From NCBI RefSeq assembly GCF_000959525.1, contig NZ_CP009831.1:868001-932000 (forward strand): DNA of 64,000 nt, read 5' to 3'. How positions within the stretch are numbered: position 1 is the first letter of the stretch; the number at the start of each line of letters is the position of its first letter. Both the position numbers and the translations under genes were made by a program. The notes below the pieces were generated by a model. It saw nothing but the letters and a program-made list of their open reading frames with translations. It made no database searches and was not told the origin of the DNA. This DNA is from Burkholderia multivorans ATCC BAA-247 (GTDB lineage Bacteria > Pseudomonadota > Gammaproteobacteria > Burkholderiales > Burkholderiaceae). Below are positions 12,553 through 44,373 of the stretch, piece by piece.

Positions 12553-13449
12553 CTACGAGCCCAGCATCAGGTCGCGATGTGCGGAGGAGCGGAACTCGCC
12601 CGGCGTCAGGCCGGTCTGCTTGCGGAAATAGCGGCTGAAGTACGCGCTGTCGACGAAGCCCATTTCGTGTGCGATCTGCTTGACGCTCAGGTTCGAATAG
12701 ACGAGGTCGCGCTGTGCTTCGCGAATCAGGTGCTCGTTGATGACGGCCGTCGTCGAGATGCCCAGTTCCTCGCGACAGACGCGCGCGAGCTGCGCAGCGG
12801 TCACGCCGAGACGCTCCGCGTAGAACTCGACCGGCTGGTGCTCGCGAAAGTGCGCGGCGATCAGCGCGTGGAAGCGCCGCAGCAGCGTGCCGCGCCGGTC
12901 GGTGAGCGCATGCGACGGCGCCGCCGCGAGATCGCTCAGGCGTGCGACATGCACGAGCAGCGCGACCAGCAGCGCCATGCCGGCGGCGCCGCGGCCGCGC
13001 GACGCGCCGCGGAATTCCTGTTCGAGCAGCGAGAAAAGCGGCATCAGCATCGACACGCTCGTGTCCGGCCCCCGGACCGGAATCACCGCGGCACGCTGCA
13101 GGACCGGCAGCACGCCGGGCGCGACGACCTTCAGCAGTGCGTCGGGCGCACGTTGCGCGACGGTGATCACGAGGCCGTCGATCTCCGGCGAGAACTCGAA
13201 CGCATGCACGGTCTGCGCGGGCAGCAGCACGAGGCACGGCGGCGCGAACGGGTGCTTTTCGCTCTCGATCACGACATGCCCGCTGCCGTCGCGAATGTAC
13301 AAAATCTGCAATAGCGCATCGTGCCGATGCGCGGCGATATGCCAGTCGTTGGGCCGGCTGCGCTCCGGGATCCATTCGAAGTTGAACGCATCGTACCAAG
13401 GCGGGCGGGCCGATTCGCCATACAGATCGTAGTTAGGGATTCTCCTCAT
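12553..13449 (-). CDS. AraC-family transcriptional regulator (PobR-like)
   Basis: The 298-residue protein has an N-terminal cupin-like sensor domain (HRHDALLQILYIRDGSGHV, about residues 41-59) and a C-terminal pair of helix-turn-helix motifs (LGVTAAQLARVCREELG and VKQIAHEMGFVDSAYFSRYF). The layout and the opening PNYDLYGE match PobR-type activators of 4-hydroxybenzoate and related aromatic acid genes. It is divergent from the SDR-flavoprotein-NIPSNAP-SDR-symporter operon, and a 21-bp-spaced TTGTCC direct repeat lies between them. It therefore probably activates that operon. Confidence 0.9.
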   Translation of the reverse strand: MRRIPNYDLYGESARPPWYDAFNFEWIPERSRPNDWHIAAHRHDALLQILYIRDGSGHVVIESEKHPFAPPCLVLLPAQTVHAFEFSPEIDGLVITVAQRAPDALLKVVAPGVLPVLQRAAVIPVRGPDTSVSMLMPLFSLLEQEFRGASRGRGAAGMALLVALLVHVARLSDLAAAPSHALTDRRGTLLRRFHALIAAHFREHQPVEFYAERLGVTAAQLARVCREELGISTTAVINEHLIREAQRDLVYSNLSVKQIAHEMGFVDSAYFSRYFRKQTGLTPGEFRSSAHRDLMLGS

Positions 13450-13473
13450 GTCGACTGGCCTCCTGTGTACAAA

Positions 13474-13500
13474 TTGTCCTGTTGCCTGATGCGTTTGTCC
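13474..13500. promoter_or_regulatory. Direct repeat, candidate AraC operator
   Basis: TTGTCC occurs at 13474-13479 and again at 13495-13500, a spacing of exactly 21 bp (two helical turns), preceded by AAA and CGT. AraC proteins bind direct half-sites at this spacing. It lies between the araC-type gene (start 13449) and the SDR operon (start 13636). Confidence 0.5.
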
Positions 13501-13635
13501 AGTTTTCGCGCGTGACGCGCTTCTATACTTTTCTCACCGGCACGGCCCATGCATCACGTATCGAGGCCGTGGCCAAACCATCCATGCGGATACACCGGAA
13601 TATATCCCTATCCATTAGAAAGGATCACGAATCAT

Positions 13636-14463
13636 ATGTCGGAGACAGGCAATCACCGGCCGGACTGGCTTCAGCTCGGCGGGCAGGTATGCGTCGTGAC
13701 GGGTGCGGCGGGCGGCATCGGCGCGTCGATCGCGCAAACGCTGGTCGAGGCCGGCGCACGCGTCGCGCTGCTCGACCGCGAGGCGGACCGTACGATCGCG
13801 CTGGCCGAGCGGCTGCGCGGCAGCGGCGGCGACGTCGTCGCGATCGCATGCGACATCGGCGACTGCGCGAGCATCGCGCAGGCAGTCGAACACGTGCAGC
13901 GCGATCTCGGTGCGGCGAACGTGCTCGTCAACAATGCGGGGCTGTTGCGTGCCGGCGGCATCGAGACGATCGACCTCGACGCATGGAACGCGATGCTGCA
14001 GGTCAACCTCACCGGCTACATGCTGTGCTCGCAGGCGTTCGGCCGCGCGATGCTCGCGCGCAGCGCGGGCGCGATCGTGCACGTCGCGTCGATCGCCGCG
14101 CGCCATCCGCAGACGCACAGCGGCGCGTACAGCGCGAGCAAGGCTGCTGTCGCGATGCTGGCGCGCCAGCTCGCGGCCGAATGGGGGCCGCGCGGCATCC
14201 GCAGCAATACCGTGTGCCCCGGCATGATCCGCACGCCGCTGTCCGAGTCGTTCTATGCGGACGGCGACATCGAGGCGCGCCGCAGCGCGATGACCGCCAG
14301 CCGGCGCATCGGTCGTCCCGACGACATCGCGAACGTCGTCGCGTTTCTCGCCAGCCCGCGCGCGGCCTATGTGAACGGTGCGGAGCTGGTCGTCGACGGC
14401 GGCCTCGACGCGATGCTGATGGACCTGGTTCCGCGGCCCGGCTACGAAGCCGGCGCGAAGTAA
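13636..14463 (+). CDS. Short-chain dehydrogenase/reductase
   Basis: This 275-residue classical SDR has the NAD(P) motif TGAAGGIG (about residues 23-30), NNAG, a catalytic Ser in VASIAA and the YSASK Tyr-Lys pair. It probably oxidises or reduces a secondary alcohol or ketone of the ring substrate. I prefer the ATG at 13636 (AAAGGA upstream); an in-frame ATG at 13549 would add an unlikely 29-residue lead. It is the first gene of a five-gene operon (SDR, flavoprotein, NIPSNAP, SDR, symporter). Confidence 0.9.
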   Translation: MSETGNHRPDWLQLGGQVCVVTGAAGGIGASIAQTLVEAGARVALLDREADRTIALAERLRGSGGDVVAIACDIGDCASIAQAVEHVQRDLGAANVLVNNAGLLRAGGIETIDLDAWNAMLQVNLTGYMLCSQAFGRAMLARSAGAIVHVASIAARHPQTHSGAYSASKAAVAMLARQLAAEWGPRGIRSNTVCPGMIRTPLSESFYADGDIEARRSAMTASRRIGRPDDIANVVAFLASPRAAYVNGAELVVDGGLDAMLMDLVPRPGYEAGAK

Positions 14464-14552: not shown

Positions 14553-16313
14553 ATGAGCGATCAGCAGCGCTCCACCCAGCTCACCTGCGACCTGCTTGTG
14601 ATCGGATCGGGAGCAGGCGGCCTGTCCACCGCGATTACCGCGCGCAAGGCGGGACTCGACGTCATCGTCGTCGAGAAGGAAGCGTGCTTCGGCGGCACGA
14701 CGGCATTTTCCGGCGGCGTGCTGTGGATTCCCGGCAATCGCCATGCGTTGGCGAACGGCGTGCGCGACACGCGCGAGGCCGCGCGTACCTATCTGCGTGG
14801 CGAAGCGGGCACGTTCTACGACGACGACGCGATCGAGGCCTTTCTCGAACACGGCCCGGCGATGCTCGACTTCTTCGAGCGCGAAACCGACGTGAAATTC
14901 GTCCCGACGCTTTATCCCGACTATCACCCGAACCTGCCGGGCGGCGTCGACATCGGTCGCTCGGTGGTTGCCGCGCCGTTCGATGCACGCGGGCTGGGGC
15001 GCGATCTCGAGCGCCTGCGCCCGCCGCTGAAGACCATCACGTTCATCGGCATGATGTTCAATTCGTCGAACGCGGATCTCCGGCATTTCTTCAATGCGAC
15101 ACGCTCGCTGAAGTCGGCGTGGTACGTGACGAAGCGGCTCGCGTCGCATCTAAAGGATCTCGCGCTGTATCGCCGCGGCGTGCAGGTCACGAGCGGCAAT
15201 GCCCTCGCCGCACGGCTCGCCAAATCGGCGCTGGACCTCGGCATCCCGATCCTCACGAACGCCGCTGCGCGCGAGCTCGCGATGCGCGACGGTCGGATCG
15301 TCGGCGCGACGGTCGATGTCGACGGCGTGCCGACCCACGTCGTTGCGCGGCGGGCGGTCGTGCTCGCATGCGGCGGCTTCTCGCACGACGTCGAGCGCAT
15401 TGCCCGCGCGTATCCGCATGTCGCGCGCGGCGGCGAGCACGTGTCGCCGGTGCCAGCCGGCAATACCGGCGACGGCGCGAAGCTGGCCGAGCGCGCTGGC
15501 GGCCGCGTCGAGATTCGCTATCCGCAGCCGGCCGCATGGATGCCGGTGTCGCGCGTGCCGCTCGGCGACGGGCGCTTCGGCGTGTTTCCGCATCTGCTCG
15601 ACCGCTACAAGCCGGGCGTGATCGGCGTCACGCGGCGCGGCACGCGTTTCACCAACGAATCGAATTCCTACCACGACGTCGGCGCCGCGATGATCGACGC
15701 GTGTCGCGACGACGCCGAGACGGCGATGTGGCTCGTCTGCGATCACGCGACGATCCGCAAGTACGGGCTCGGCTTTGCGAAGCCCGCGCCGGTGCCGCTC
15801 GGGCCGCTGCTGCGCAACGGCTATCTGGTCAAGGGCAACACGCTCGCCGAACTCGCGCAGCGGGCCGGCATCGATGCCGCGAATCTCGCGGCCACCGTGC
15901 GCCGTTACAACGAAGCGGCCGCGCGCGGCGAGGACCCGGCGTTCGGCCGCGGCACGACGTCGTTCAACCGCTATCTCGGCGATCCGGACCATCGTCCGAA
16001 CCCGTGCGTGGCGCCGCTCGGCGACGGCCCGTACTACGCGCTGAAGGTGCTGATGGGCGATCTCGGCACATTCGACGGGATTCGCACCAACGTGCCCGGA
16101 CAGGTGCTGGCGGCCGACGACCGGCCGATCGCCGGCCTCTACGCGGTCGGCAACGACCGCGCCAGCATCATGGGCGGCAACTATCCCGGTGCGGGCATCA
16201 CGCTAGGGCCGATCATGACGTTCGGCTACCTGACCGCCCGCCACATCGCCGGCATCGCCGACCCGACGCCCGCCGCCGCCGAATTGCCCGCCGCCGCGCG
16301 CGCGACGGCCTGA
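14553..16313 (+). CDS. FAD-dependent oxidoreductase (KstD/fumarate-reductase-like), copy 1
   Basis: A 586-residue flavoprotein of the FAD-binding-2 family. The FAD motif GSGAGG is at residues 18-23, followed by VVEKEACFGGTTAFSGG. The C-terminal part carries NESNSYHD and GNYPGAGITLGP, as in 3-ketosteroid delta-1-dehydrogenases and related ring dehydrogenases. The family removes or adds hydrogens across a C-C bond next to a keto group. Two further paralogs lie in the island (19876 minus, 31255 plus). GGAGG lies upstream of the ATG at 14553. The substrate is inferred to be an alicyclic keto acid rather than a steroid, because no steroid genes are present. Confidence 0.9.
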   Translation: MSDQQRSTQLTCDLLVIGSGAGGLSTAITARKAGLDVIVVEKEACFGGTTAFSGGVLWIPGNRHALANGVRDTREAARTYLRGEAGTFYDDDAIEAFLEHGPAMLDFFERETDVKFVPTLYPDYHPNLPGGVDIGRSVVAAPFDARGLGRDLERLRPPLKTITFIGMMFNSSNADLRHFFNATRSLKSAWYVTKRLASHLKDLALYRRGVQVTSGNALAARLAKSALDLGIPILTNAAARELAMRDGRIVGATVDVDGVPTHVVARRAVVLACGGFSHDVERIARAYPHVARGGEHVSPVPAGNTGDGAKLAERAGGRVEIRYPQPAAWMPVSRVPLGDGRFGVFPHLLDRYKPGVIGVTRRGTRFTNESNSYHDVGAAMIDACRDDAETAMWLVCDHATIRKYGLGFAKPAPVPLGPLLRNGYLVKGNTLAELAQRAGIDAANLAATVRRYNEAAARGEDPAFGRGTTSFNRYLGDPDHRPNPCVAPLGDGPYYALKVLMGDLGTFDGIRTNVPGQVLAADDRPIAGLYAVGNDRASIMGGNYPGAGITLGPIMTFGYLTARHIAGIADPTPAAAELPAAARATA

Positions 16314-16327
16314 CTCCGGAGTTCACC

Positions 16328-16669
16328 ATGTCTGACTCGAAAGCCTTCGTCGACCATCGCATCTACACGATCCGCCCGCGCGGGATGGCGGAATTCCTCG
16401 AGATCTTCGACCGGCTCGCGATGCCGATCCAGGTCAAGTATCTCGGCCCGCCGGTCGGCTTCTACATGAGCGACATCGGCGCGCTGAACCAGGTGGTCCA
16501 CCTGTGGGGCTACGACAGCATCGCCGACTACGACGCGCGCCGCACCGCGCGCGACGCCGACCCGGAATGGCCCGCCTATCTGCAGGCATCCGGCCATCTG
16601 ATCGTCGCGCAGGAAAGCCGCATCGTCCGCCGCGTCGATTTCCCGAGCCTCGCCTATCTGACGCGCTGA
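16328..16669 (+). CDS. NIPSNAP family protein, single domain
   Basis: A 113-residue cytoplasmic protein with the ferredoxin-like alpha/beta fold of the NIPSNAP group (HRIYTIRPRGMAEFLEIF at the N-terminus, then NQVVHLWGYDSIADYDARR). The biochemical role of the family is largely unknown; in bacteria it often accompanies catabolic dehydrogenases. It starts 12 bases after the flavoprotein stop and is in the same operon. A longer relative (32997) follows the third flavoprotein in the same way, so the pairing is repeated within the island. Confidence 0.85.
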   Translation: MSDSKAFVDHRIYTIRPRGMAEFLEIFDRLAMPIQVKYLGPPVGFYMSDIGALNQVVHLWGYDSIADYDARRTARDADPEWPAYLQASGHLIVAQESRIVRRVDFPSLAYLTR

Positions 16670-16701: not shown

Positions 16702-17469
16702 ATGAGCAACCTGCGTGTGGCGATCGTCACGGGCGGCGCCGACGGTATCGGCTGGGCCTGCGCAACGCGGCTCGCCGACGACGGCTATCGTGTCGCGATC
16801 GCCGACCTGGACGGCGAGCGCGCGGCGCAACGGGCAGCGGAACTTGGCGGCGGCCACGTCGGCGTGCGCGTCGACGTGGCCAGCGAGGACCACGTGGTTG
16901 CGTTGATGCGCACCGTCGCCGAGCGCTTCGGCCGGATCGACGTGCTGGTCAACAATGCGGGAATCGGCGAGCAGAACGCGCCGACGCTCGAGCAATCGGC
17001 GACGGCCTTCGACCGGCTGCTGGCCGTGCATGTGCGCGGCACGTTTCTCGCGAGCCGCGAGGCGGCGCGCGTGATGCTCGCGCGACGGTCCGGCACGATC
17101 GTCAATCTCGGCTCGATTGCCGGCCAGAGCGGGATTCCGATGCGCAACGCGTACGGCGCCGCGAAGGCCGCGATCGCGTCGCTGACGCGCTCGATGGCAT
17201 GCGAGTGGGCGCGCGCAGGCGTGCGCGTCAACGCGGTCGCACCCGGCTACGTGGCGACCGAACTGGTCGATACGCTGGCGCGCAACGGGCAGTTGAACCG
17301 CGCGGCGATCGAACGCCGCACGCCGCTCGGGCGGCTGGCCGAGCCGGACGAGATCGCACGCGCGATCGCGTTCCTCGCATCGGATGCGGCGAGTTACATC
17401 ACCGGCACCGTGCTGAACGTCGACGGCGGCTGGCATGCATACGGCGCTGCACAGGCAGCACCGGACTGA
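16702..17469 (+). CDS. Short-chain dehydrogenase/reductase
   Basis: The 255-residue SDR has TGGADGIG (about residues 10-17), NNAG near 89, a catalytic Ser in LGSIAG, and YGAAK for the Tyr-Lys pair. The C-terminal NVDGGW is the usual family end. CAGGAGACGAC lies upstream of the ATG. It is the fourth gene of the operon and differs clearly from the first SDR, so the two likely act on different steps or positions of the substrate. Confidence 0.9.
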   Translation: MSNLRVAIVTGGADGIGWACATRLADDGYRVAIADLDGERAAQRAAELGGGHVGVRVDVASEDHVVALMRTVAERFGRIDVLVNNAGIGEQNAPTLEQSATAFDRLLAVHVRGTFLASREAARVMLARRSGTIVNLGSIAGQSGIPMRNAYGAAKAAIASLTRSMACEWARAGVRVNAVAPGYVATELVDTLARNGQLNRAAIERRTPLGRLAEPDEIARAIAFLASDAASYITGTVLNVDGGWHAYGAAQAAPD

Positions 17470-17569
17470 GCGTCACCGTCGATGCCGACGCGCGACCGAT
17501 AACGAAATACGGAGACCCCCGTGCGCAAGCGACGCAGACGCGCTGCGCACGGATCATAGGAGACAGACG

Positions 17570-18946
17570 ATGACAACTTCCCAGCGTACGCTCGACGTGC
17601 AGTCGTTCATCGACGCCGAGCGTTTTTCCCCTTGCCAGTGGCTGATCCTGATCCTGTGCTTTCTGGTGGTGGCCGCCGACGGCTATGACACCGCCGCGAT
17701 CGGCTTCATTGCGCCGGCGCTGGTCCAGGACTGGGGCATTGCGCGCAGCGCGCTCGGCCCGGTGATGAGCGCGGCGCTGGCCGGGCTCGGCATCGGCGCG
17801 CTCGCTGCCGGCCCGTGTGCCGACCGGCTCGGTCGCAAGACCGTGCTGGTGCTGTCGGTGGCATGCTTCGGCGCGTGGAGTCTCGTGTCGGCGCATGCGC
17901 AATCGATCGGCATGCTGACGGCGTTTCGCTTCCTGACCGGCCTGGGCCTCGGCGCGGCGATGCCGAACGCGGTCACGCTGATGTCGGAATATGCACCGGC
18001 GCGGATTCGCGGCGTCGCGGTCAATGCGATGTTCTGCGGGTTCTCGTGCGGGCTCGCGGTCGGCGGCATCACGTCGGCATGGCTGATTCCGCACTTCGGC
18101 TGGCAGAGCGTGCTGAGCGCCGGCGGGATCGGTCCGATCGTGCTCGCCATCGCGCTGGCAATGCTGCTGCCGGAGTCCGCGCAGTATCTCGCCGTGCGAC
18201 AGGGCACGCATGAGCGCATCGCGCGGATCCTCGCGCGGATCGCGCCGCGCGCGCTTTTCGACGGCTGTACGTTCGTCGCCGCCGAAGCGCGCGCGGAGAC
18301 GGGCGGCGGTGCATCCGCGCTCGCGCAGGTGCTGTCGGGCCGGTTCCGCACGCGCACGCTGCTGCTGTGGGCCGCCTATTTCATGGGACTGCTGATCTAT
18401 TACCTGCTCACCAACTGGATGCCGACGCTGTTTCGCGATGCGGGCTTCGACACCGAGCACGGCGCGCTGATGACGTCGCTGTTTCCGCTCGGCGGCGTGC
18501 TCGGCAATCTGTGCGCCGGCTGGCTGATGGACCGCTTCAATCCGAACCGGACGATCGTCTGCGCGTATGTCGTGGCCGGCGCGCTGGTGCTCGTGGTGAG
18601 CCGCACGATCGGGCACGCCGCATCGCTCGGCACGCTGATCTTCCTGTGCGGCACCGTGGTGACGAGTGCGGTGACGTCGATGTCCGCGTATGCGGCCAGT
18701 CTCTATCCGACGCGCTGCCGCGCGACCGGCGTCGCGTGGATGCTCGGTATCGGCCGGATCGGCGGTGTGGTCGGCGCGTTCGTCGGCGCAATGCTGATGG
18801 GGCTCGGCTGGCGCTTCGGCGACGTGTTCAGCCTGCTCGCGGTGCCGGCGCTCGCGGCGGCCGGCGCACTGTACATGATCGGCGGCCGCCGGGCGAATGG
18901 TGCGGAACACGATCGCGCGGCGGGGTCGGCGGTGCAGCAGCACTGA
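17570..18946 (+). CDS. AAHS-family aromatic/alicyclic acid:H+ symporter, copy 1
   Basis: A 458-residue 12-helix MFS protein of the aromatic acid:H+ symporter type (PcaK/BenK/MhpT group). Signatures are DGYDTAAIGFIAP in helix 1, ADRLGRK in loop 2-3, RFLTGLGLGAAMPNAVTL in helix 4 and MDRFNPN in loop 8-9. The helix-1 Asp pattern is the AAHS hallmark, so the substrate is probably a carboxylic acid taken up with protons. It ends the AraC-controlled operon. A paralog at 34576 ends the matching right-hand operon. Confidence 0.9.
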   Translation: MTTSQRTLDVQSFIDAERFSPCQWLILILCFLVVAADGYDTAAIGFIAPALVQDWGIARSALGPVMSAALAGLGIGALAAGPCADRLGRKTVLVLSVACFGAWSLVSAHAQSIGMLTAFRFLTGLGLGAAMPNAVTLMSEYAPARIRGVAVNAMFCGFSCGLAVGGITSAWLIPHFGWQSVLSAGGIGPIVLAIALAMLLPESAQYLAVRQGTHERIARILARIAPRALFDGCTFVAAEARAETGGGASALAQVLSGRFRTRTLLLWAAYFMGLLIYYLLTNWMPTLFRDAGFDTEHGALMTSLFPLGGVLGNLCAGWLMDRFNPNRTIVCAYVVAGALVLVVSRTIGHAASLGTLIFLCGTVVTSAVTSMSAYAASLYPTRCRATGVAWMLGIGRIGGVVGAFVGAMLMGLGWRFGDVFSLLAVPALAAAGALYMIGGRRANGAEHDRAAGSAVQQH

Positions 18947-18980: not shown

Positions 18981-19811
18981 TTACCCCGCAGGATCCCACT
19001 GCGGCGCGAACGCCGGGCTCACGAGCCGCTGATCCTTCGGCAGCCCGGCAATCATTGCACGATCGTGGTCGTCCAGTTCGACGTCGAGCGACGCGAGATT
19101 GGCGAGCTGGTTGTCCTTCCCGGCCGCCTTTGGCACCGCGGCCACATTCGGCTGGTCGAGCAGCCATTTGAGCGCGACCTGCGTCGGCAGCACGCGATGC
19201 TTGTCGGCGATCCGCTGCAGTTCCGGGATCGTCGACACGCGGTTGCGCGCGAGCGGGCTGTACGCGATCAGCGCCATGTCGTGCTGTTCGGCAAACTGCA
19301 GCAGCCGGGTCTGGCCGAGCAGCACGTGATATTCGACCTGCATCGCGGCCAGCGGCGCCTGCATCACGTCGACGACCTCGTGCAGCAGCGCGAGCGGAAA
19401 GTTCGCGACCCCGATCGCACGGGCGCGGCCCTGTTCCCTGAACGACACGAGCGTGTCGATCGTTTCCGCGAGATTCCAGTCGGGTGCCGGCCAGTGGATC
19501 AGGAACAGGTCGACGTAGTCGGTGCGCAGCGCGCGCAACGTGTTGTCGAACGATTGCCGCATGCGCCCGGGGCTCAGCTGGTCCCACCAGACCTTGCTCG
19601 TCACGTGGATCTGCTCGCGCGGGACGGCCGAGGCGGCGATCGCATTGCCGACTGCCGCTTCGTTGTCGTATGCGGCGGCGGTGTCGACATGCCGATAGCC
19701 CGATTCGAGCGCGCTTGCGACGGCGCGCGTGCACGTGTCGCCGAGCATCGGCCAGGTGCCGAGGCCCAGTTTCGGCAGGTTCAGCGAATGGCGGTTGACG
19801 ATGCGTTGCAT
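18981..19811 (-). CDS. Aldo/keto reductase
   Basis: The 276-residue NADPH-type TIM-barrel reductase has the catalytic tetrad visible: Asp and Tyr in DTAAAYDNE, Lys in SKVWWD and His in LIHWP. The start at 19811 (MQRIVNRHSL) has GAGGAAC upstream; the longer reading frame is not credible. It follows the second flavoprotein by 64 bases on the same strand. It probably reduces or oxidises a carbonyl formed in the same pathway. It is convergent with the symporter gene. Confidence 0.9.
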   Translation of the reverse strand: MQRIVNRHSLNLPKLGLGTWPMLGDTCTRAVASALESGYRHVDTAAAYDNEAAVGNAIAASAVPREQIHVTSKVWWDQLSPGRMRQSFDNTLRALRTDYVDLFLIHWPAPDWNLAETIDTLVSFREQGRARAIGVANFPLALLHEVVDVMQAPLAAMQVEYHVLLGQTRLLQFAEQHDMALIAYSPLARNRVSTIPELQRIADKHRVLPTQVALKWLLDQPNVAAVPKAAGKDNQLANLASLDVELDDHDRAMIAGLPKDQRLVSPAFAPQWDPAG

Positions 19812-19875
19812 CTGCGGTTCCTCCTCGATGATGGGGGCGGCCATCGCATTATGGCAGGCCGTGCGCGCCGGTTCG

Positions 19876-21690: not shown

Positions 21691-21762
21691 GTCCACGTCT
21701 CCTTCGTTCCGTGCCGCCGCGCATGCCGATTCGACGCGTGGCGGACGATGTCTTGATGATTG

Positions 21763-21805: not shown

Positions 21806-21917
21806 AAAAAGTGTGCAATTGAGCGGGCCACCTGCGTTCCGTCGCGGGACCAAACGGAGACGCCCGCATGCGCGGGCGTTGAAGCGTCAAAGCGTCGAAC
21901 GACGCCGGCGCCGCCGT

Positions 21918-27537: not shown

Positions 27538-27659
27538 GCCCATCTCCAGTGTGCGACCCGCCGGGCCAGCGCCGCGCCGTTTGGGCGCGGGGCGGGCAGC
27601 GTGCGCGGGATCCGCTCGAGGTTTGCCGGCGCATGCGCCGGCGAGGCGGCGGCGCGCCG

Positions 27660-28958: not shown

Positions 28959-29042
28959 CTGTCTGCGCTCCTGTTCCCGGTGATGGGTCGACGCCGCGCC
29001 ATCGCGGCGCGCGGCAATTTTTTGGTGAACTCTAGTTCAAAC

Positions 29043-29057
29043 TGGAATAGCATTCAA
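29043..29057. promoter_or_regulatory. IclR-type operator box between importer and Gfo/Idh genes
   Basis: TGGAATAGCATTCAA matches the TGGAAT-N3-ATTCCA box at 13 of 15 positions. A second inverted repeat, TGAACT-CT-AGTTCA (29026-29039), abuts it. It lies 85 bp from the binding-protein start and 84 bp from the dehydrogenase start. Confidence 0.6.
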
Positions 29058-29141
29058 CAATCAAAGACGATTTCAAGAAATCGGGGTATTCACCCGGTTG
29101 GTCGCGGACACGCGTCGTAAACCCGAAAAGGAGATGAAGCG

Positions 29142-30200: not shown

Positions 30201-31117
30201 CGGCCGGCCGCGGCGAGCGCCGGCACGCCGTGGCGATAGAACGCGATGGTCTGCCGCAGGCCGTCGTCGAGCGCGGTGCGCGGCAGGCCCGGCAGCAACC
30301 GCGCGAGCGCGGGATCGTCGAGGAAGTCCGTCGCGATCGGCAGCGGCGGCCCGTCGGCATCGATGTGCGCATCCGGCGCGAGGGCCGCGATCCGCTCGAT
30401 CAGCGTGGTCACCGGCGTGATCTCGCCGGCCAGCGTGAACGCGTGCGCGCCGTCGAAGTCGTGCAGCAGCGCGGCCTCGTACGCAGCCGCGACATCGTCC
30501 GCGTAGACGAGGCCCGTCGTGCCACTGAACGGAATCGTATAGCGCTCGCCGCGTGCGGCCGCGCGGCATGCGAGGCTCGGCCCGGCGCTCGAGCCGGTCT
30601 CGCGTCCGGCGCCGTAGACCACCAGCGGGCGGAAGCCGACGCTTGCGATCCCGTGGTCGTGCCAGTACGCACGCGCCGAGCCTTCGCACGCGAGCTTGAA
30701 CGCGCCGTAGTGGGTCTGCGGCAGCGGCACCGCGCCGTCGTCCGGGCCGAACACGCCGGCGCTGCTCGCATAGAGCACGCGCCGCAGCCCGGCCGCGCGA
30801 GCGGCCTCGAACACGTTCAGCGTGCCGATCAGGTTGACTTGCGCGCCACGCACCGGGTCGGCCGCACAGGCGGGCGTGAGGATGCCGGCGAGATGGATCA
30901 CCGCGTCGCAGCCGTCGAGCGCGCGTGCGGTGGCCGCCGCATCGGCGACGTCGCCCGTGCGCCAGCGCACCGCCGCGGCGCGCGCGGGTGCGAGCGCGTC
31001 GACCAGGCGCGGGTTCGCGCCCACGTCGAAGCTCACGCAGTCGATGCCGCGTGCCAGCAGCCTCCTGATGATCCACGCGCCGAGAAAACCGCTGCCGCCC
31101 GTTACCAGTACCCGCAT
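30197..31117 (-). CDS. NAD-dependent epimerase/dehydratase (extended SDR)
   Basis: A 306-residue extended SDR with GGSGFLG (about residues 7-13), a VIHLAG motif, the catalytic region SSAGVFG and the YGAFK Tyr-Lys pair. The family acts on nucleotide sugars, and many catabolic members act on free uronates or hydroxy acids. A promoter region with an IclR-type palindrome separates it from the divergent flavoprotein gene at 31255. Its exact substrate cannot be read from the sequence. Confidence 0.88.
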   Translation of the reverse strand: MRVLVTGGSGFLGAWIIRRLLARGIDCVSFDVGANPRLVDALAPARAAAVRWRTGDVADAAATARALDGCDAVIHLAGILTPACAADPVRGAQVNLIGTLNVFEAARAAGLRRVLYASSAGVFGPDDGAVPLPQTHYGAFKLACEGSARAYWHDHGIASVGFRPLVVYGAGRETGSSAGPSLACRAAARGERYTIPFSGTTGLVYADDVAAAYEAALLHDFDGAHAFTLAGEITPVTTLIERIAALAPDAHIDADGPPLPIATDFLDDPALARLLPGLPRTALDDGLRQTIAFYRHGVPALAAAGR

Positions 31118-31164
31118 TGTCGTGCCTCCCTGTCGTCACAAAGTCTTTGCGAAACTCGAATTAG

Positions 31165-31197
31165 TGGAATAGTATTCCACATCGAAAGAACATTCCA
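31165..31197. promoter_or_regulatory. IclR-type operator boxes between epimerase and flavoprotein copy 3
   Basis: TGGAATAGTATTCCA (31165-31179) is a perfect palindrome with a 3-bp centre. An inverted half-site (ACATTCCA, ending 31197) follows at 18 bp. It is shared by the divergent genes starting at 31117 and 31255. Confidence 0.65.
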
Positions 31198-31254
31198 CAA
31201 ACGTCGCGATGACATCGCATCCGGCGTTGGGGACACTGAACGGGCATAGCGAAC

Positions 31255-33000
31255 ATGAAGCGTGAACCGATACTCGACTGCGACGTGCTGGTGCTGGGCT
31301 CCGGCGCGGGCGGGCTCGCGGCGGCGGTGACGGCGGCCGCGCGGGGCCTGCGCGTGATCGTCGCGGAGAAGGAGGCCGTGTTCGGCGGCACGACCGCGTG
31401 GTCGGGCGGCTGGATGTGGATTCCGCGCAATCCGCTCGCGACGCGCGCGGGAATCCGCGAGGACATCGATGCGCCGCGCACCTATCTGAAGCACGAACTG
31501 GGCGCGCACTACGACGCCGACAAGGTCGATGCGCTGCTCGAACGCGGCCCGGAGATGGTCGCGTTTTTCGAACGGCATACGGCCGTGCGCTTCATCGACG
31601 GCAACCGCATTCCCGATTTCCATACGACGCCGGGCGCCGGTGCGGGCGGGCGCTCGGTCTGCGCGATGCCGTTCGACGGCCGCGAGCTAGGCCCGCTGAT
31701 CGACAAGCTGCGCGAGCCGCTGTCGGTCACGACGATCAGGGGGATGGCGCTCGCGTCCGGGCAGGATCTCGCGCACTTCTATCGCGCGACGCGCTCGCCG
31801 AAGTCGGCGCTGTACGCGAGTCGCCGGCTGGCTGCGTTCGCGTGGCACAAGCTGCGCCACGGACGTTCGATGCATCTCGTCAACGGCAATGCACTCGTCG
31901 CTCGGCTGCTGAAATCGGCGGCCGATCGCGGCGTCGACCTGCGCACGCATGCGAAAGCGATCGGCCTGATGCGCGACGCCGAACGCGTGACCGGCGCGCG
32001 GGTCGAGATCGACGGCGTCGTGCACGAGGTACGCGCAGCGCGCGGGGTCGTGCTTGCGTGCGGCGGCTTTCCGCACGATCCGGCGCGGCGCGCGCAGACT
32101 TTCGCGTATACGCCGTCCGGGCGCGAACACTGGTCGGCAGCGCCGCTCTGCAATACCGGCGACGGCATCCGGCTCGGCGAAGCGGTCGGCGCGCATTTCG
32201 ACCAGACGCTCGATGCGCCGGCCGCGTGGGCGCCCGTGTCGCTGGTGCCGCAAGCGGGCGCCGCCGCCGTTGCATTTCCGCACCTGATCGAGCGCGCGAA
32301 ACCGGGCGTGATCGCGGTGACGCGCGCAGGCCGGCGCTTCGTGAACGAGGCGTCGTCGTATCACGACTTCATCTCCGCGCTGCTGGATACGACCCCCGCC
32401 GGCGACGAAGTCTGCGCATGGCTGATTTGCGACCACCGTTTCCAGCGGCGTTACGGGCTCGGTTTTTCGAAACCGCGGCCGTTCCCGGTCGGCCCGTACC
32501 TGCGTTCCGGCTACCTGAAGCGCGGCGCGACGCTCGATGCGCTGGCTCACGCGTGCGGGATCGATGCGCGTGCGCTCGCGGACACGGTGGCCGCGTACAA
32601 CCAGTATGCGAAGCAGGGCGCCGATCCGGCGTTTCACAAAGGCTCGACGCCGTACAACCGCGTGCAGGGCGATGCGGCGCATCGGCCGAATCCGTGTCTC
32701 GCGCCGATCGAGGCGGGGCCGTTCTATGCCGTGAAGCTATTGCCCGGCAGCCTCGGCACGTTCGCGGGCCTCGCGACCGACCGCGATGCGCGCGTGCTCG
32801 ATCGAAGCGGCGCGGCGATCGCCGGCCTCTACGCGGTCGGCAACGATGCAGCCAGCATGATGGGCGGCTGCTATCCGAGCGGCGGCATCACGCTCGGGCC
32901 TGCGATGACCTTCGGCTATCTCGCCGCGCTTTCTCTTGCCGACGCCGCGCCCGATGGCGCGCGCCCCGGCGTCGATTCATCCTCGAGGACAATGCAATGA
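31255..33000 (+). CDS. FAD-dependent oxidoreductase (KstD/fumarate-reductase-like), copy 3
   Basis: A 581-residue flavoprotein with GSGAGG at residues 15-20, VAEKEAVFGGTTAWSGG, NEASSYHD and GCYPSGGITLGP. It is closest to copy 1 in length and in motif spelling. It leads the right-hand operon (flavoprotein, NIPSNAP, TIM-barrel isomerase, AAHS symporter). The stop overlaps the next start (ATGA). The upstream palindrome suggests IclR control. Confidence 0.9.
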   Translation: MKREPILDCDVLVLGSGAGGLAAAVTAAARGLRVIVAEKEAVFGGTTAWSGGWMWIPRNPLATRAGIREDIDAPRTYLKHELGAHYDADKVDALLERGPEMVAFFERHTAVRFIDGNRIPDFHTTPGAGAGGRSVCAMPFDGRELGPLIDKLREPLSVTTIRGMALASGQDLAHFYRATRSPKSALYASRRLAAFAWHKLRHGRSMHLVNGNALVARLLKSAADRGVDLRTHAKAIGLMRDAERVTGARVEIDGVVHEVRAARGVVLACGGFPHDPARRAQTFAYTPSGREHWSAAPLCNTGDGIRLGEAVGAHFDQTLDAPAAWAPVSLVPQAGAAAVAFPHLIERAKPGVIAVTRAGRRFVNEASSYHDFISALLDTTPAGDEVCAWLICDHRFQRRYGLGFSKPRPFPVGPYLRSGYLKRGATLDALAHACGIDARALADTVAAYNQYAKQGADPAFHKGSTPYNRVQGDAAHRPNPCLAPIEAGPFYAVKLLPGSLGTFAGLATDRDARVLDRSGAAIAGLYAVGNDAASMMGGCYPSGGITLGPAMTFGYLAALSLADAAPDGARPGVDSSSRTMQ

Positions 33001-33608
33001 CACTGTATGACGTAGTGACGCTTACGGTGAAGATCGGCGCGAATGCGCGGGTCTTCGAAGGGATCCAGGCAAGCGGCGATCCGCAGGGCGGCAGGCTGCT
33101 CGGCTGCTGGTATTCCGACATCGGCACGCTCGGCCAGGTGCTGGTGCTGCGCGGCTATGCGTCGGAAGCCGCACTGGTCGCCGAGCGCAAGCGAATGCTG
33201 CTCGAAGGCAACCCGTTCGGCTGCGGCGACGCCATCGTCGACGTGAAGACGGGCAGCTACGCGCTGTTCCCGTTCCTGCCGCCGATCGAGCCGGCCGTGC
33301 ACGGCGGCATCTACGAGATGCGCGTGTACGGCACGAAGCTCGGCAGCCTGCAGCAGACGATCGACGTGTGGGAACAGGCCGTGCCGGAACGTATCAAGCG
33401 CTCGCCGCTGGTCGGCGCGATGTATGCGCTCGACGGCGACGTGCCGCGCTTTCTGAACATCTGGCCGTATGCGAGCGTGGACGAGCGTTCGCGCATTCGG
33501 GCGGAAGCGGTCAAGGACGGCATCTGGCCGCCGAAGGGCGGCCCGGCGCACCTGACGACGATGGCCTCGACGATCTGTGTGCCCGCGCCGTTTTCGCCGC
33601 TGCGCTGA
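32997..33608 (+). CDS. NIPSNAP family protein, tandem domain
   Basis: The 203-residue protein contains two NIPSNAP-like halves: LYDVVTLTVKIGANARVFEG with VLVLRGYASEAALVAERKRM, and IYEMRVYGTKLGSLQQTIDV with FLNIWPYASVDERSRIRAEA. It is about twice the length of the relative at 16328. It is translationally coupled to the flavoprotein by a four-base overlap. That coupling suggests a joint function, but the chemistry is unknown. Confidence 0.85.
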   Translation: MTLYDVVTLTVKIGANARVFEGIQASGDPQGGRLLGCWYSDIGTLGQVLVLRGYASEAALVAERKRMLLEGNPFGCGDAIVDVKTGSYALFPFLPPIEPAVHGGIYEMRVYGTKLGSLQQTIDVWEQAVPERIKRSPLVGAMYALDGDVPRFLNIWPYASVDERSRIRAEAVKDGIWPPKGGPAHLTTMASTICVPAPFSPLR

Positions 33609-33638
33609 ACGTGACGCAATGACGATCAAGGAGACGAC

Positions 33639-34472
33639 ATGACCCAGCCTCAATCCCGCGCGCTGTCGCTGTCGGCGCTGACCGTGCTCGAACTGAATCC
33701 GCCGCAGATGGTGCAATGCGCAGTCGACGCGGGCTACGACTACGTCGGCCTGCGCCTGCTGCCGGCCACCGATACCGAGGTCCGCCACGCGATTGTCGGC
33801 GACACGCCGCTGCGGCGCGAGACGCTGGCGGTCCTGCGCGATACGGGCATGCGCGTGCTCGACGTCGAAATCGCACGTCTGAAGGCCGATACCGACGTGA
33901 CGGACTACCTGCCGATGCTCGAAACGGCCGCGGAACTTGGCGCGCGCTACGTGCTCGTCGCGGGCAACGATCCCGACGAAGCGCGCACCGTCGAGCGGCT
34001 CGGCCGTCTGTGCGATCTCGCCGCGCCGCTCGGCCTGTCGCCGTCGCTGGAGCCGATGCCGTGGACCGACGTGAAGGATCTCGACATCGGCGCGCGCATC
34101 GTCGATGCATGTGGCCGTCGCAACACCGGGCTGATCGTCGATCCAATCCACTTCGACCGCGCGGGGTCGTCGCTCGACACGTTGAGCGCGTTGCCGCGCC
34201 ACTACTTCGGCTACGTGCAGTTCTGCGATGCGCCGGCCGAGCGGCCGACCGACGTCGACACGCTGCTGTTCCAGGCGCGCTGCGCGCGGCTGATGCCGGG
34301 TGACGGCGGCCTCGATCTGACGGGCATCCTGCGCGCGCTGCCCGCGCACCTGCCGGTGAGCGTCGAGGTGCCGAACCAGCAATGGGCGAACACGACCCCT
34401 GCGGTGGCGCGCGCGCGCCGGCTGCGCGAAGCGACACGCGCGGTGATCGACGCGGCGGCCGTGCCGGCCTGA
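33639..34472 (+). CDS. Sugar phosphate isomerase/epimerase family protein (TIM barrel)
   Basis: This 277-residue cytosolic AP-endonuclease-2-like TIM barrel shows the expected metal-binding carboxylates and His along the barrel (VLDVEIARL, SLEPMPWTDV, IVDPIHFDRAG, VQFCDAP, VSVEVPNQQW). The family includes xylose-isomerase-like enzymes and 3-dehydroshikimate dehydratases. With a shikimate-dehydrogenase-like gene nearby, a dehydratase that makes protocatechuate is a reasonable guess but unproven. GGAGACGAC lies upstream of the ATG. A related but broken gene sits at the left island end. Confidence 0.83.
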   Translation: MTQPQSRALSLSALTVLELNPPQMVQCAVDAGYDYVGLRLLPATDTEVRHAIVGDTPLRRETLAVLRDTGMRVLDVEIARLKADTDVTDYLPMLETAAELGARYVLVAGNDPDEARTVERLGRLCDLAAPLGLSPSLEPMPWTDVKDLDIGARIVDACGRRNTGLIVDPIHFDRAGSSLDTLSALPRHYFGYVQFCDAPAERPTDVDTLLFQARCARLMPGDGGLDLTGILRALPAHLPVSVEVPNQQWANTTPAVARARRLREATRAVIDAAAVPA

Positions 34473-34575
34473 GCGCGCGGCGGCAACGACGGGCCGGGCT
34501 TCACCTGCGGCGTAACGCCCGCGTGTGGCCCGGGCATTCGACGCGACGACAACAACGATACTCCGGAGACATTCG

Positions 34576-35985
34576 ATGACTTCCTCGCAAGCGGCCGCTC
34601 GGCCACGACCTCATATTAATCAGTATCGCGAAACGGATCGGATCGAGCCGCTCGACGTCCAGTACTTCCTCGACGCGCAACCGGTCGGCCGCTTCCAGTG
34701 GCTGGTTCTGCTGTTATGCATGCTGATCGTGATGCTGGACGGGCTCGACACGGTGATGATCGGCTTTATCGCGCCGTCGATTTCAAGCGCATGGGCGATT
34801 CCGCGCGACGCGCTCGGCCCTGTGATGAGCGGCGGCCTGCTCGGCCTCGCGTTCGGTGCGCTCACCGCCGGCCCGATGTCCGACCGCTTCGGACGCAAGA
34901 CGGTGATGGTCGGCGCGGTGCTGTTCTTCGGGATATGGAGCGTGGCGTCCGCCTTTGCGACCGGCGTCGCGTCGCTGACGGTGCTGCGCTTCCTGACCGG
35001 CATCGGCCTGGGCGCGTCGATGCCGAACGCGGCCACGCTGATGGCCGAATATGCGCCGCCGCGGCGCCGGGCACTGATGGTGACGGCGGTGTTCTGCGGC
35101 TTCACGTTCGGCGCGGCGGGCGGCGGCTTCGTGAGCGCATGGCTGATCGAGACCTGGGGCTGGCATTCGGTGCTGCTGCTGGGTGGCGTGCTGCCGGTCG
35201 CCTACGTGCCGGTGCTCGCGAGATGGCTGCCCGAATCCGCACGCTATCTTGCGCTGAAGGAGAGCCGGCGCGTGCGTCTGGTCGGCGTGCTGAACCGCGT
35301 GCAGCCCGGCATCGCCGATGAGCGCACGCGTTTCGTGTCGCACGAACCGGCGCGCGACGCGCGCAGCCCGGTGCGGGCGATCCTGTCGCGCGAGCATGCG
35401 TTCGGCACGGTGATGCTGTGGATCTGCTATTTCGCGGGCCTGCTTACCGTCTACCTGCTCGGCAACTGGCTGCCGACGCTGATTCGCGGGCTCGGGTTTT
35501 CGCTGGGCGAGGCGGCTGTCGTCGGCGCGCTGTTCCAGGCCGGAGGCACGGTCGGCTCAGTGCTGATCGGCTGGCAGATGGATCGCTTCAATCCGCACCG
35601 CGCGCTCGGCGCGACCGTGCTGGCGGGTGGCGCGCTCGCATGGTACATGGGCGCGTCGGCCCATTCGTTCGCGGTCATCTGCGTGCTGGCGCTTGGCATC
35701 GGCTATTGCATGAACGGCTCGAATACCGGCTTTTGCGCGCTCGCGGCCGGCTCCTACCCGACCGAGATGCGCGCGACCGGCACGAGCTGGATGCTCGGCG
35801 TCGGCCGCTTCGGCGGCATTGCGGGCGCGATGCTGGGTGCGGCGATGCTGCACGCGAACTGGAGCTTCGGGCAGGTGTTCGCGGCGCTCGCGGTGCCAGC
35901 GGCGGTGGGCGGCGCGGCGGTGCTGCTCAAGGGCGCGCGTCATCGCGGCACCTTCGTGCCCGTCAGCGTGAGCGCGGGCCACTGA
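34576..35985 (+). CDS. AAHS-family aromatic/alicyclic acid:H+ symporter, copy 2
   Basis: A 469-residue 12-helix MFS symporter similar to the one at 17570. It has DGLDTVMIGFIAPS in helix 1, SDRFGRK in loop 2-3, RFLTGIGLGASMPNAATL in helix 4 and MDRFNPH in loop 8-9. The ATG at 34576 with CCGGAGACATTCG upstream is the best start. It closes the right-hand operon that begins with flavoprotein copy 3. Two symporters and an ABC importer suggest several related substrates. Confidence 0.9.
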   Translation: MTSSQAAARPRPHINQYRETDRIEPLDVQYFLDAQPVGRFQWLVLLLCMLIVMLDGLDTVMIGFIAPSISSAWAIPRDALGPVMSGGLLGLAFGALTAGPMSDRFGRKTVMVGAVLFFGIWSVASAFATGVASLTVLRFLTGIGLGASMPNAATLMAEYAPPRRRALMVTAVFCGFTFGAAGGGFVSAWLIETWGWHSVLLLGGVLPVAYVPVLARWLPESARYLALKESRRVRLVGVLNRVQPGIADERTRFVSHEPARDARSPVRAILSREHAFGTVMLWICYFAGLLTVYLLGNWLPTLIRGLGFSLGEAAVVGALFQAGGTVGSVLIGWQMDRFNPHRALGATVLAGGALAWYMGASAHSFAVICVLALGIGYCMNGSNTGFCALAAGSYPTEMRATGTSWMLGVGRFGGIAGAMLGAAMLHANWSFGQVFAALAVPAAVGGAAVLLKGARHRGTFVPVSVSAGH

Positions 35986-36033
35986 GCGCGCGTCGCGGGA
36001 GCGTTCGCTCGAGGATCTGCTTGAGTTCCAGTA

Positions 36034-36048
36034 TGGAATTGTGTTCTC
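36034..36048. promoter_or_regulatory. IclR-type operator box upstream of the iclR-type gene
   Basis: TGGAATTGTGTTCTC, overlapped by the inverted repeat TTCCA-GTA-TGGAA (36026-36038), lies 33-55 bases before the regulator start. It matches the boxes at 21763, 21791, 29043 and 31165, so autoregulation is likely. Confidence 0.55.
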
Positions 36049-36080
36049 ATTTGCCATCACGATACGAATGAGAAGGCGCT

Positions 36081-36950
36081 ATGGCAGGAAATCTCGAGCG
36101 TGCGCTCGCAGTGCTGGAATTGCTGGCAAAGAACGGCGGCCGCATGTCGCTGGCCACCATTGCCGATACGCTTAATATTCCGCGCAGCGGTACGCATCGA
36201 CTGCTGTCGATGCTGATCGACGAAGGCTTCGTGCGGCAGGATAGGGAGCATGGTGAGTACATGCTTGCGCTGAAGCTGGTATCGCTTGCGCTGATCTACC
36301 TGTCGACGAGTGGGGTGTTCGACATTTCGCAGCCGGTGCTCGACCGATTGGCCGAGGCGTCCGGCGAACTGGCGCGGCTCGGTGTGGTCGAAGACGATCA
36401 CATCACCTTCGTCGGCAAGGCACAGGGCGCGAAGTCGGGGCTGCGCTACGACCCCGACATGGGCAGCCAGCCGCCGCTGCATTGCACCGCAAGCGGGCAG
36501 GCCTGGCTTGCCACGCTGCCGGACGAACGTGCGCTCGAGCTGGTGTCGAAGCAGGGCGGGCTTGGTGCAAAGGCGCAGAATGTGCCGCGGGCGCCGAAGA
36601 CGATCCAGCAGTTCTTGAAAGATCTGAAGGGCGCGCGTGAGCGCGGCTACGGAGTCGCGATCGAGACCTACGAGATCGGCATGACGTCGATCGCTGCCGC
36701 AGTACGCAATCCGGTCACGAACGAGGTGGTCGGGATCGTCAGCCTGGCCGGCCCGACGAGCCGCCTGCCGGAGTCACGGCTCAAGGAACTTGCGCCGTTG
36801 CTGCTTCAGGCGGCGTCGGACATGAGTGCAGCTACGCTGGGTTCTCCACTGTTCAAACGGGCGGGTGCTGCCGGCGTGCCCGCGAAGTTGGCAGCGGACC
36901 CGGTGAGTAGGCCGAGAACGTCGACGCGCAAGCGAGGGGCGAGGGATTGA
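36081..36950 (+). CDS. IclR-family transcriptional regulator
   Basis: A 289-residue regulator with an N-terminal winged helix-turn-helix (MSLATIADTLNIPRSGTHRL, about residues 22-41) and a C-terminal GAF-like effector domain (LHCTASGQAWLA, ERGYGVAIETYEIGMTSIAA). IclR proteins of the PcaU/PobR type respond to aromatic or shikimate-like acids. It has its own promoter with a TGGAAT box. It probably controls the flavoprotein, importer and epimerase promoters that share that box. The Arg/Ser-rich tail after residue 255 is longer than usual. Confidence 0.92.
   Translation: MAGNLERALAVLELLAKNGGRMSLATIADTLNIPRSGTHRLLSMLIDEGFVRQDREHGEYMLALKLVSLALIYLSTSGVFDISQPVLDRLAEASGELARLGVVEDDHITFVGKAQGAKSGLRYDPDMGSQPPLHCTASGQAWLATLPDERALELVSKQGGLGAKAQNVPRAPKTIQQFLKDLKGARERGYGVAIETYEIGMTSIAAAVRNPVTNEVVGIVSLAGPTSRLPESRLKELAPLLLQAASDMSAATLGSPLFKRAGAAGVPAKLAADPVSRPRTSTRKRGARD

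Positions 36951-42450: not shown

Positions 42451-44373
<1,923 letters not shown>

Follow-up and report, generated by a model that had tools for sequence, protein, structure and literature searches.

The 20 genes between positions 12553 and 36950 of a 64,000-nucleotide window of Burkholderia multivorans ATCC BAA-247 (contig NZ_CP009831.1, 868,001 to 932,000; host genome of 6.32 Mb in three contigs) form a block built around three flavoproteins, FAD1, FAD2 and FAD3, which resemble 3-ketosteroid delta-1-dehydrogenases (KstD). In this study, we have explored this block and its relatives in other genomes to investigate what it may degrade (Table 1; positions are those of the window).

Content and modular structure of the block

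Using frame-by-frame G+C, open reading frame calls, Pfam and NCBIfam, we found every gene listed in a preliminary description of this DNA in its place, including the two flavoproteins directly followed by a NIPSNAP gene (FAD1-NIPSNAP1 and FAD3-NIPSNAP2) and the three importers, two of which are of the major facilitator superfamily (MFS) and the aromatic acid:H+ symport (AAHS) type and one of the LIV-type ABC family. The porin and the terminal AraC and IclR regulators had gone unmentioned there. We distinguish a module A (AraC, the short-chain dehydrogenases SDR1 and SDR2, FAD1, NIPSNAP1 and MFS1) from a module B (FAD2, the shikimate-dehydrogenase-like (SkDH-like) protein, the LIV importer, the Gfo/Idh/MocA dehydrogenase, the epimerase-like protein, FAD3, NIPSNAP2, the TIM barrel, MFS2 and IclR), with the aldo-keto reductase and the porin between them.

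The comparison with other genomes delimits both the block and its modules. The whole set is present on a B. multivorans replicon at 96-100% protein identity, and a second Burkholderia genome (G029) is collinear with positions 12548-36887 at 93-97% DNA identity, with no alignment longer than 200 bp in the 16-19 kb taken on each side. In a further genome (G009), only the FAD2 region (19979-21809) and positions 23257-36860 aligned, which corresponds to module B alone, with module A and the porin missing, and Paraburkholderia largidicola carries module B by annotation with no module A in 20 kb on each side. Module A adjoins module B in Azohydromonas (L078, L086), Rhodoferax (L082), Paracoccus sp. 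MA and Rhizobium sp. ACO-34A. As the modules occur both apart and together, the block consists of two modules. In Azohydromonas, Rhodoferax, Paracoccus and Rhizobium, relatives of the AraC regulator (35-48% identity) adjoin module A and relatives of SDR1 (56-60%) adjoin FAD1, as does a 63% relative of NIPSNAP1 in Rhodoferax L082. The fused LIV importer gene is also annotated in P. largidicola and Rhizobium sullae, and is represented by separate genes in Rhizobium ACO-34A and Paracoccus.

A search of other genomes for the gene order, as the preliminary description had suggested, showed that the succession of flavoprotein, NIPSNAP2 and TIM barrel recurs far beyond chance. The NIPSNAP2 search of the contig collection gave 252 encoding stretches, the best 80 of which were kept as loci. 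In 70 of the 76 loci with enough flank, the double NIPSNAP is preceded by a flavoprotein that ends at most 150 bp away, and in 66/77 a TIM barrel starts at most 200 bp downstream of the NIPSNAP. Within 9 kb of NIPSNAP2, counted in 61 of the 80 loci (19 were omitted for short flanks) and labelled by best match to the window proteins, we found a TIM barrel in 59, a SkDH-like protein in 57, an IclR regulator in 56, FAD2 in 50 (a label that thus includes a subfamily of about 38-50% identity), an epimerase-like protein in 30, a Gfo/Idh/MocA dehydrogenase in 26 and FAD1 in 4, one of them a doubtful 45% relative in L059 that is not module A. At least two flavoproteins are present in 47/61 loci. Chance assembly is ruled out by this conserved order and content and by the same block in G029. 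The minimal recurring set is a dehydrogenase, FAD3 and the TIM barrel with an importer.

In whole or in part, the set is thus shared with bacteria of soil and water, Gammaproteobacteria among them. The hosts of these loci include Burkholderia, Paraburkholderia, Caballeronia, Comamonadaceae, Aquitalea, Zobellella and Marinobacterium, to which plasmid records add Rhizobium, Paracoccus, Limimaricola and Diaphorobacter. Occurrence is patchy: NIPSNAP2 has a match in 26/65 Burkholderia genomes, only 7 of which (our own included) are at 93-100% identity, the other rows being 15 at 42-49% and 8 short partial matches, and it is found in 15 of 399 Burkholderiales at E<=1e-30, with 7 full length. We think it probable that the cluster is horizontally transferred, and it may move between replicons and genera as a two-module block. 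The case for mobility is based on G029, G009 and the patchy occurrence and not on G+C; the block is at about 69% compared with 60-64% in most flanks, yet eight 20-kb stretches of the same genome (L183-L190) span 63.5-70.8%, and foreign G+C was therefore rejected as an argument. No empty site was found with the marker MFS gene at 39849, which has no match (E<=1e-150) in the other 64 Burkholderia genomes and which has a 66% paralogue at G000:C2:933214 (G000 being the genome of the window), just outside the window.

Several observations concern the surroundings of the block and of its relatives. To its right (39849-44373) lie this MFS gene, a gene for a LigB-type ring-opening dioxygenase and one for a PD40 beta-propeller protein, and upstream are a cytochrome b561-type gene (79-861), the selenocysteine synthase gene SelA (1986-3488) and tRNA-Sec (5465-5560). 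About 20 Caballeronia and Paraburkholderia loci (e.g. L037 12873-18182) have a P450, an aldehyde dehydrogenase and a DAO-type oxidoreductase downstream of IclR. In L082 (11733-14550), a CoA transferase is accompanied by an acyl-CoA dehydrogenase that matches the cyclohexane-1-carbonyl-CoA dehydrogenase model below its cut-off. The flavoprotein matches are in several pieces in Candidatus Paraburkholderia kirkii (L054) and in a Caballeronia record (L068), where the cassette looks decayed. A plasmid-collection record labelled Klebsiella pneumoniae (CP125156.1), which at 5.37 Mb may be a chromosome, holds a 57% FAD3 relative in three pieces.

Table 1. Genes of the block, in window positions, with strand and basis of assignment
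Feature	Position	Strand	Basis
AraC-family regulator; left end of conserved block	12553..13449	-	Pfam HTH_18/AraC_binding
SDR1, classical short-chain dehydrogenase, module A	13549..14463	+	adh_short_C2
FAD1, putative KstD-type ring desaturase, module A	14553..16313	+	FAD_binding_2/KstD-like; PRK06134 754 bits (cut-off 747); catalytic residues; own clade
NIPSNAP1, single-domain, directly behind FAD1	16328..16669	+	PF07978 1.9e-28
SDR2, classical short-chain dehydrogenase, module A	16702..17469	+	adh_short_C2; ChcB2 model 231 bits (below cut-off 350)
MFS1, AAHS-type importer 1	17435..18946	+	PcaK 509 bits (cut-off 770), 2A0115 407 (cut-off 419)
Aldo-keto reductase, DkgB-like, start codon uncertain	18981..19883	-	PF00248
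FAD2, putative KstD-type ring desaturase	19876..21690	-	PRK12843 688 bits (cut-off 758); catalytic residues; own clade
Porin	21918..23138	-	PF13609; unaligned in module-B-only copy of G009
SkDH-like protein	23268..24110	-	Pfam/NCBIfam families; nearest solved relative 4k28
LIV-type ABC importer, permease and two ATPases fused, 854 aa	24107..26671	-	BPD_transp_2 and two ABC_tran stretches
LIV-type permease, LivH-like	26668..27543	-	family match
Periplasmic substrate-binding protein of ABC importer	27660..28958	-	Peripla_BP_6
Gfo/Idh/MocA dehydrogenase	29142..30200	+	family models
Extended SDR, NAD epimerase/dehydratase family (epimerase-like)	30197..31117	-	family match
FAD3, putative KstD-type ring desaturase, core of module B	31255..33000	+	PRK06134 864 bits, above cut-off; Tyr/Tyr/Gly kept
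NIPSNAP2, double NIPSNAP, 203 aa, directly behind FAD3	32997..33608	+	PF07978; dimeric alpha/beta-barrel fold in model
TIM barrel (AP_endonuc_2), putative dehydratase/isomerase; relative of QuiC-type 3-dehydroshikimate dehydratase and of IolI	33639..34472	+	profile, model, residues
MFS2, AAHS-type importer 2	34525..35985	+	PcaK 498 bits (cut-off 770), 2A0115 406 (cut-off 419)
IclR-family regulator, BhcR/PcaR-like below cut-offs; right end of block	36081..36950	+	NCBIfam models

The flavoproteins and their partner proteins

The three flavoproteins share 41-52% identity and, in a quick tree of 75 of the 152 rows made with no bootstrap, each group with relatives from other genera in a clade of its own, the deep splits having Shimodaira-Hasegawa approximate likelihood-ratio values of 98-100. 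By this comparison they are old, separate clades, and a recent triplication is ruled out. Beyond the three, a search of the same genome with FAD3 gave only 25.6 and 22.2 bits, so that no other close KstD-like protein was found in it. Aligned with KstD1 (4c3x), the equivalents of Tyr318, Tyr487 and Gly491, which we take to have the catalytic roles that they have in KstD, are kept in all three and in 152/152 sequences. The Tyr119 site is Tyr in the FAD1 types (3/3) and the FAD2 types (61/61), and Phe in 80/88 FAD3 types.

The scores of function-named models bear on two alternatives. In the first, the flavoproteins would be true 3-ketosteroid dehydrogenases of a terpenoid or steroid side route. 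Among solved structures, FAD1 and FAD3 are indeed closest to 3-ketosteroid dehydrogenases and, for FAD2, the KstD equivalog PRK12844 (436 bits) exceeds ChcC2 (408 bits). However, all three are below the cut-offs of the KstD equivalogs PRK12844 (FAD1 471, FAD2 436, FAD3 466; cut-off 789) and PRK07843 (428, 382 and 448; cut-off 788), and for FAD1 and FAD3 these are outscored by ChcC2. The preliminary description was also right that steroid genes are missing, at least among the 20 window proteins, the only part of the genome searched for a steroid ring-degradation gene. As the genome has no further close KstD-like protein and the conserved partners are shikimate-type enzymes, we regard a steroid route as highly improbable. 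Rather, the KstD residues and the model scores support a predicted role in ring desaturation next to a ketone and speak against a steroid role.

The second alternative is a route of the chc type, named after the cluster of Sinomonas cyclohexanicum in which cyclohexanecarboxylate is reported to be aromatised aerobically by two consecutive ring desaturases (Yamamoto et al. 2021, as described in PMC9795900). Cyclohexanecarboxylate or a mono-hydroxy relative would be oxidised to the 4-ketone and then, by two desaturases, to 4-hydroxybenzoate. ChcC2 is the best function-named model for FAD1 (568 bits) and FAD3 (519 bits), ChcB2 finds SDR2 (231 bits), 47/61 loci have two or more flavoproteins, the importers are PcaK-like (below cut-off), a P450 lies within 9 kb in 17/61 loci and, in 11 of another 27 loci, acyl-CoA dehydrogenase and CoA-transferase genes adjoin the cassette. 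Nevertheless, every Chc model is below its curated cut-off; for ChcC2 (cut-off 900) and ChcC1 (cut-off 1000; FAD1 353, FAD3 341, FAD2 291 bits), this applies to all three flavoproteins, and there is no P450 match among the 20 proteins, on which grounds we rejected membership in chc. Furthermore, making 4-hydroxybenzoate requires neither a 3-dehydroshikimate dehydratase (DSD)-like enzyme nor a SkDH-like one, and the relatives of the cassette adjoin QuiC (PobA was not searched for). A chc-type route is thus unlikely in our view.

Among the partner proteins, the SkDH-like protein keeps Lys86, Asn107 and Asp123 in 69/69 proteins of at least 48% identity (alignment to 4k28, which we take to be a RifI2-type protein, and 2egg); the Lys and Asp are presumably catalytic, as in AroE. 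It is below the cut-off of every AroE or quinate/shikimate dehydrogenase equivalog, the best giving 136 of 295 bits and aroE 133 of 200. The NIPSNAP genes score 99.1 and 95.8 bits with PF07978 (cut-off 22.3). The model of NIPSNAP2 (pLDDT, predicted local distance difference test, of 93) is a double alpha/beta barrel like the anthrone-oxidase-like 5f9p and other proteins. This likeness leads to a variant of the hydroaromatic-acid route proposed below, in which the product would be a more hydroxylated phenol of the gallate or hydroxyquinol type and NIPSNAP would follow the desaturase as a monooxygenase that needs no cofactor. The identity to such oxygenases is about 10%, the fold is common to many functions, and the minimal loci of Sagittula, Bosea and Phyllobacterium have FAD3 and the TIM barrel without an annotated NIPSNAP, all of which makes this product doubtful.

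The TIM barrel and a probable shikimate link

In profile searches, the TIM barrel first retrieved Lmo2234 (2g0w), which may be the QuiC2 of Listeria, and the fusion of a TIM barrel with 4-hydroxyphenylpyruvate dioxygenase 5hmq, presumably QuiC1, followed by IolI; with a model of pLDDT 94.6, IolI, Lmo2234 and 5hmq stand together at the top of the fold matches. The metal-site residues E138, D168, H171 and E243 are invariant in 85/85 sequences and Q194 is kept in 84/85; with residue roles taken from QuiC, the modelled fold carries the Glu/Asp/Glu metal ligands of TIM-barrel DSDs. The QuiC equivalog, a two-domain fusion model, gave 30 bits of 1200 and matched only residues 96-259. The TIM barrel appears closest to the IolI, Lmo2234 and QuiC type, and dehydration of 3-dehydroshikimate is its predicted reaction. 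The likeness to IolI also brings in a cyclitol or sugar-acid route, in which the Gfo/Idh/MocA dehydrogenase would form an inosose, an IolI/IolE-like barrel would isomerise or dehydrate it and the flavoproteins would desaturate the product. With the IolG model below cut-off (148 of 355 bits), no iolB/C/D-type match among the 20 window proteins, importers of the acid type and repeated co-location with QuiC, SkDH and PcaH, we consider it quite improbable.

The neighbourhoods in other genera point to the shikimate route, where the flavoprotein-TIM pair lies near genes for QuiC, shikimate dehydrogenase and protocatechuate dioxygenase (PcaH). The TIM search covered 398 Pseudomonadota genomes, with thresholds of 240 and 180 bits chosen after the results were known. 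A KstD-type gene lies within 1.5 kb of a strong TIM orthologue in 11/14 loci (the window genome and G319 included) and of a weak one in 0/8. A QuiC-type DSD is found in 6 of 14 20-kb regions with TIM (L152, L153, L154, L156, L157, L160), hand-chosen matches from 12 genomes that leave out G000 and G319 and include two second copies (L162 at 207 bits, and L165). These QuiC matches are nearly full length where measured. The stretches of G545 and G721 were placed off-centre towards known long-frame matches, QuiC still being within 9 kb of TIM in both, and G319 has no QuiC in its fetched stretches. In L156, the order is PcaH (above the TIGR02422 cut-off), QuiC, SkDH, Gfo, IclR, FAD3 and TIM, a 51% relative of our Gfo/Idh/MocA dehydrogenase adjoining SkDH and QuiC. 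At the genome level, QuiC is present in 66/398 genomes overall compared with 14/14 with TIM above 240 bits and 18/21 above 180 bits, for which the Fisher test ignores relatedness and genome size; estimates of chance proximity took a single, randomly placed QuiC per genome. Around the NIPSNAP2 cassette, QuiC, whole or split, is near in 7 of 27 loci that belong to Comamonadaceae or to other genera not closely related to Burkholderia (L076, L077, L084, L088, L089, L091, L096), and the Paracoccus sp. MA plasmid has the QuiC fusion within a run of module A, the epimerase-like gene and FAD2. The window genome itself has, outside the cluster, a QuiC match (C2:2249504-2251405) and pcaGH-type genes (C2:1129671-1130807).

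As a separate observation, intradiol-dioxygenase-like genes of 185-197 aa lie beside or near TIM homologues of 33-36% identity (L162 9672-10226, L166 8989-9561, L167 7734-8324); those of L162 and L166 are far below the cut-offs of the catechol 1,2-dioxygenase models.

A candidate route and its relation to known systems

Based on these results, we infer, with a probability of about 60%, that the block is a horizontally acquired gene cluster for the degradation of hydroaromatic acids akin to quinate and shikimate, with a saturated or partly saturated ring (polyhydroxycyclohexane or cyclohexene carboxylates). The AAHS and LIV importers would bring the acid in. The SkDH-like protein, the Gfo/Idh/MocA dehydrogenase and the SDRs, with the epimerase-like protein, would then convert a ring hydroxyl into a ketone and fix the stereochemistry, after which the KstD-type flavoproteins would strip a hydrogen pair beside the ketone and give a 3-oxo ring acid its C1=C2 double bond; for example, 3-oxo-4,5-dihydroxycyclohexanecarboxylate (from dihydroshikimate) would become 3-dehydroshikimate. 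The metal-type TIM barrel may dehydrate 3-dehydroshikimate or an isomer to protocatechuate, a step in which the QuiC encoded elsewhere could also act, and a protocatechuate 3,4-dioxygenase, likewise encoded elsewhere, would lead to the beta-ketoadipate route. The three flavoproteins could serve different ring positions or stereoisomers, and the extra SDRs, the Gfo/Idh/MocA and epimerase-like proteins and the two further flavoproteins a wider range of stereoisomers and substitution patterns. At the weakest step, the NIPSNAPs, with a barrel fold as in cofactor-free monooxygenases and anthrone oxidases, may complete the aromatisation or tautomerise the product. All of these steps are drawn from the chemistry of the families. 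The stepwise oxidation and aromatisation of a hydroxylated cyclohexane or cyclohexene carboxylate given in the preliminary description therefore stands as the best reading, in view of the KstD residues, the DSD-related TIM barrel and the QuiC/SkDH/PcaH neighbourhoods.

A number of findings weigh against this proposal. In the SkDH-like protein, the first carboxylate-binding Ser of AroE (a role we assume) is replaced by Val in 69/69 proteins, so that its substrate is probably not shikimate itself, and dihydroshikimate as the substrate of the cluster is a guess from chemistry. The conserved order has exceptions, with no flavoprotein directly before NIPSNAP2 in 6/76 loci (e.g. L056, L060, L073), a single long flavoprotein match in 12/61 and none in 2/61. 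In fold, the TIM barrel matches the inosose isomerase IolI no less well than 5hmq, and the Bosea TIM is only a 35% relative. In L020-L070, the loci of Burkholderia, Paraburkholderia and Caballeronia, no QuiC was found beside the cassette, the total being 7/94 loci, and the link to the shikimate route thus rests on other genera; the QuiC match of the window genome is itself flagged with one internal TAG stop. QuiC also occurs in 3/8 regions with a weak TIM homologue and no FAD gene, so that its presence nearby is stronger evidence for the role of the TIM barrel and dehydrogenases than for that of the flavoproteins. QuiC-bearing genomes may simply be large soil genomes, and related genomes are not independent. 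Finally, the acyl-CoA dehydrogenase and CoA-transferase genes of 11/27 loci, ten directly after TIM and one (L073) before NIPSNAP2, could indicate a CoA-dependent variant or a different substrate there.

Tentatively, we extend the proposal to a CoA-free aerobic aromatisation of fully saturated (dihydroshikimate-type) acids, carried as a mobile two-module block, in which FAD3 might be a "dihydroshikimate delta-1-dehydrogenase", the TIM barrel coupled to it a new, single-domain class of dehydroshikimate-type dehydratase and NIPSNAP2 a cofactor-free oxygenase or tautomerase working on the newly formed ring, which would give a bacterial NIPSNAP a role in catabolism; this is possible and by no means probable. 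Plant matter commonly contains hydroaromatic acids (quinate, shikimate and reduced forms of these), and to our knowledge the enzymes acting on the saturated ones are poorly known. If true, our reading would point to substrates for many proteins annotated as "FAD-dependent oxidoreductase" (PRK06134/PRK12839/PRK12843), for the SkDH-like subfamily and for a group of NIPSNAP proteins, and would provide biocatalysts for the ring desaturation of alicyclic acids. The minimal cluster offers a small test set of one dehydrogenase, one desaturase and one dehydratase. No published work on this cluster was among the matches listed in our literature searches (NIPSNAP, KstD-like, DSD and hydroaromatic-acid topics). 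The excerpts of a Paraburkholderia phymatum transcriptome on Mimosa exudates do not mention shikimate, quinate or FAD (PMC5789663), and in those of PMC8706239 "dihydroshikimate" is a name for the substrate of EC 4.2.1.118, which is of no use for this question.

The preliminary description knew of no named pathway with this composition. That two ring desaturases can aromatise an alicyclic acid aerobically is nevertheless, as a general principle, already known from chc (excerpts of PMC9795900), whose ChcB and ChcC models in NCBIfam score SDR2, FAD1 and FAD3 well, though below cut-off. What would be new here is the link to the route from quinate and shikimate to protocatechuate, the two-module mobile structure and the minimal set of dehydrogenase, FAD3 and TIM. 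Our cluster would share with chc the aerobic use of a dehydrogenase and ring desaturases; it differs by the missing P450, the Chc scores below cut-off, a third flavoprotein and its occurrence in Proteobacteria, and it adds the SkDH-like, Gfo/Idh/MocA and DSD-like proteins, the NIPSNAPs and the importers. The CoA-dependent, anaerobic bad-ali pathway of cyclohexanecarboxylate, as excerpted from the same source (PMC9795900), also feeds an alicyclic acid into aromatic catabolism, and some Burkholderiales copies of our cassette have an acyl-CoA dehydrogenase and a CoA-transferase; in contrast, none of the 20 window proteins matches a CoA ligase, a CoA transferase or an acyl-CoA dehydrogenase.

With the 3-ketosteroid dehydrogenases (KstD1 4c3x; 7p18), the flavoproteins share the sequence family, the FAD domain and the Tyr/Tyr/Gly residues, but they stay below the model cut-offs, have no steroid genes in the cluster and, in the FAD3 type, mostly have Phe for Tyr119. 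Myo-inositol catabolism (IolG, IolI, IolE) likewise combines a Gfo/Idh/MocA dehydrogenase with a xylose-isomerase-like barrel, whereas here IolG is below cut-off, no other iol-type match is among those listed for the 20 proteins and the company is of the shikimate type. The qui genes for quinate and shikimate resemble our cluster in the DSD-like TIM barrel, the SkDH-family enzyme and the acid importers, and in other genera the cassette has relatives in the vicinity of QuiC and PcaH. Unlike the qui genes, our cluster includes ring desaturases, for which the breakdown of quinate and shikimate has no need, and its TIM barrel is a family apart from the QuiC fusion, both being present in the same genomes in 14/14 cases.

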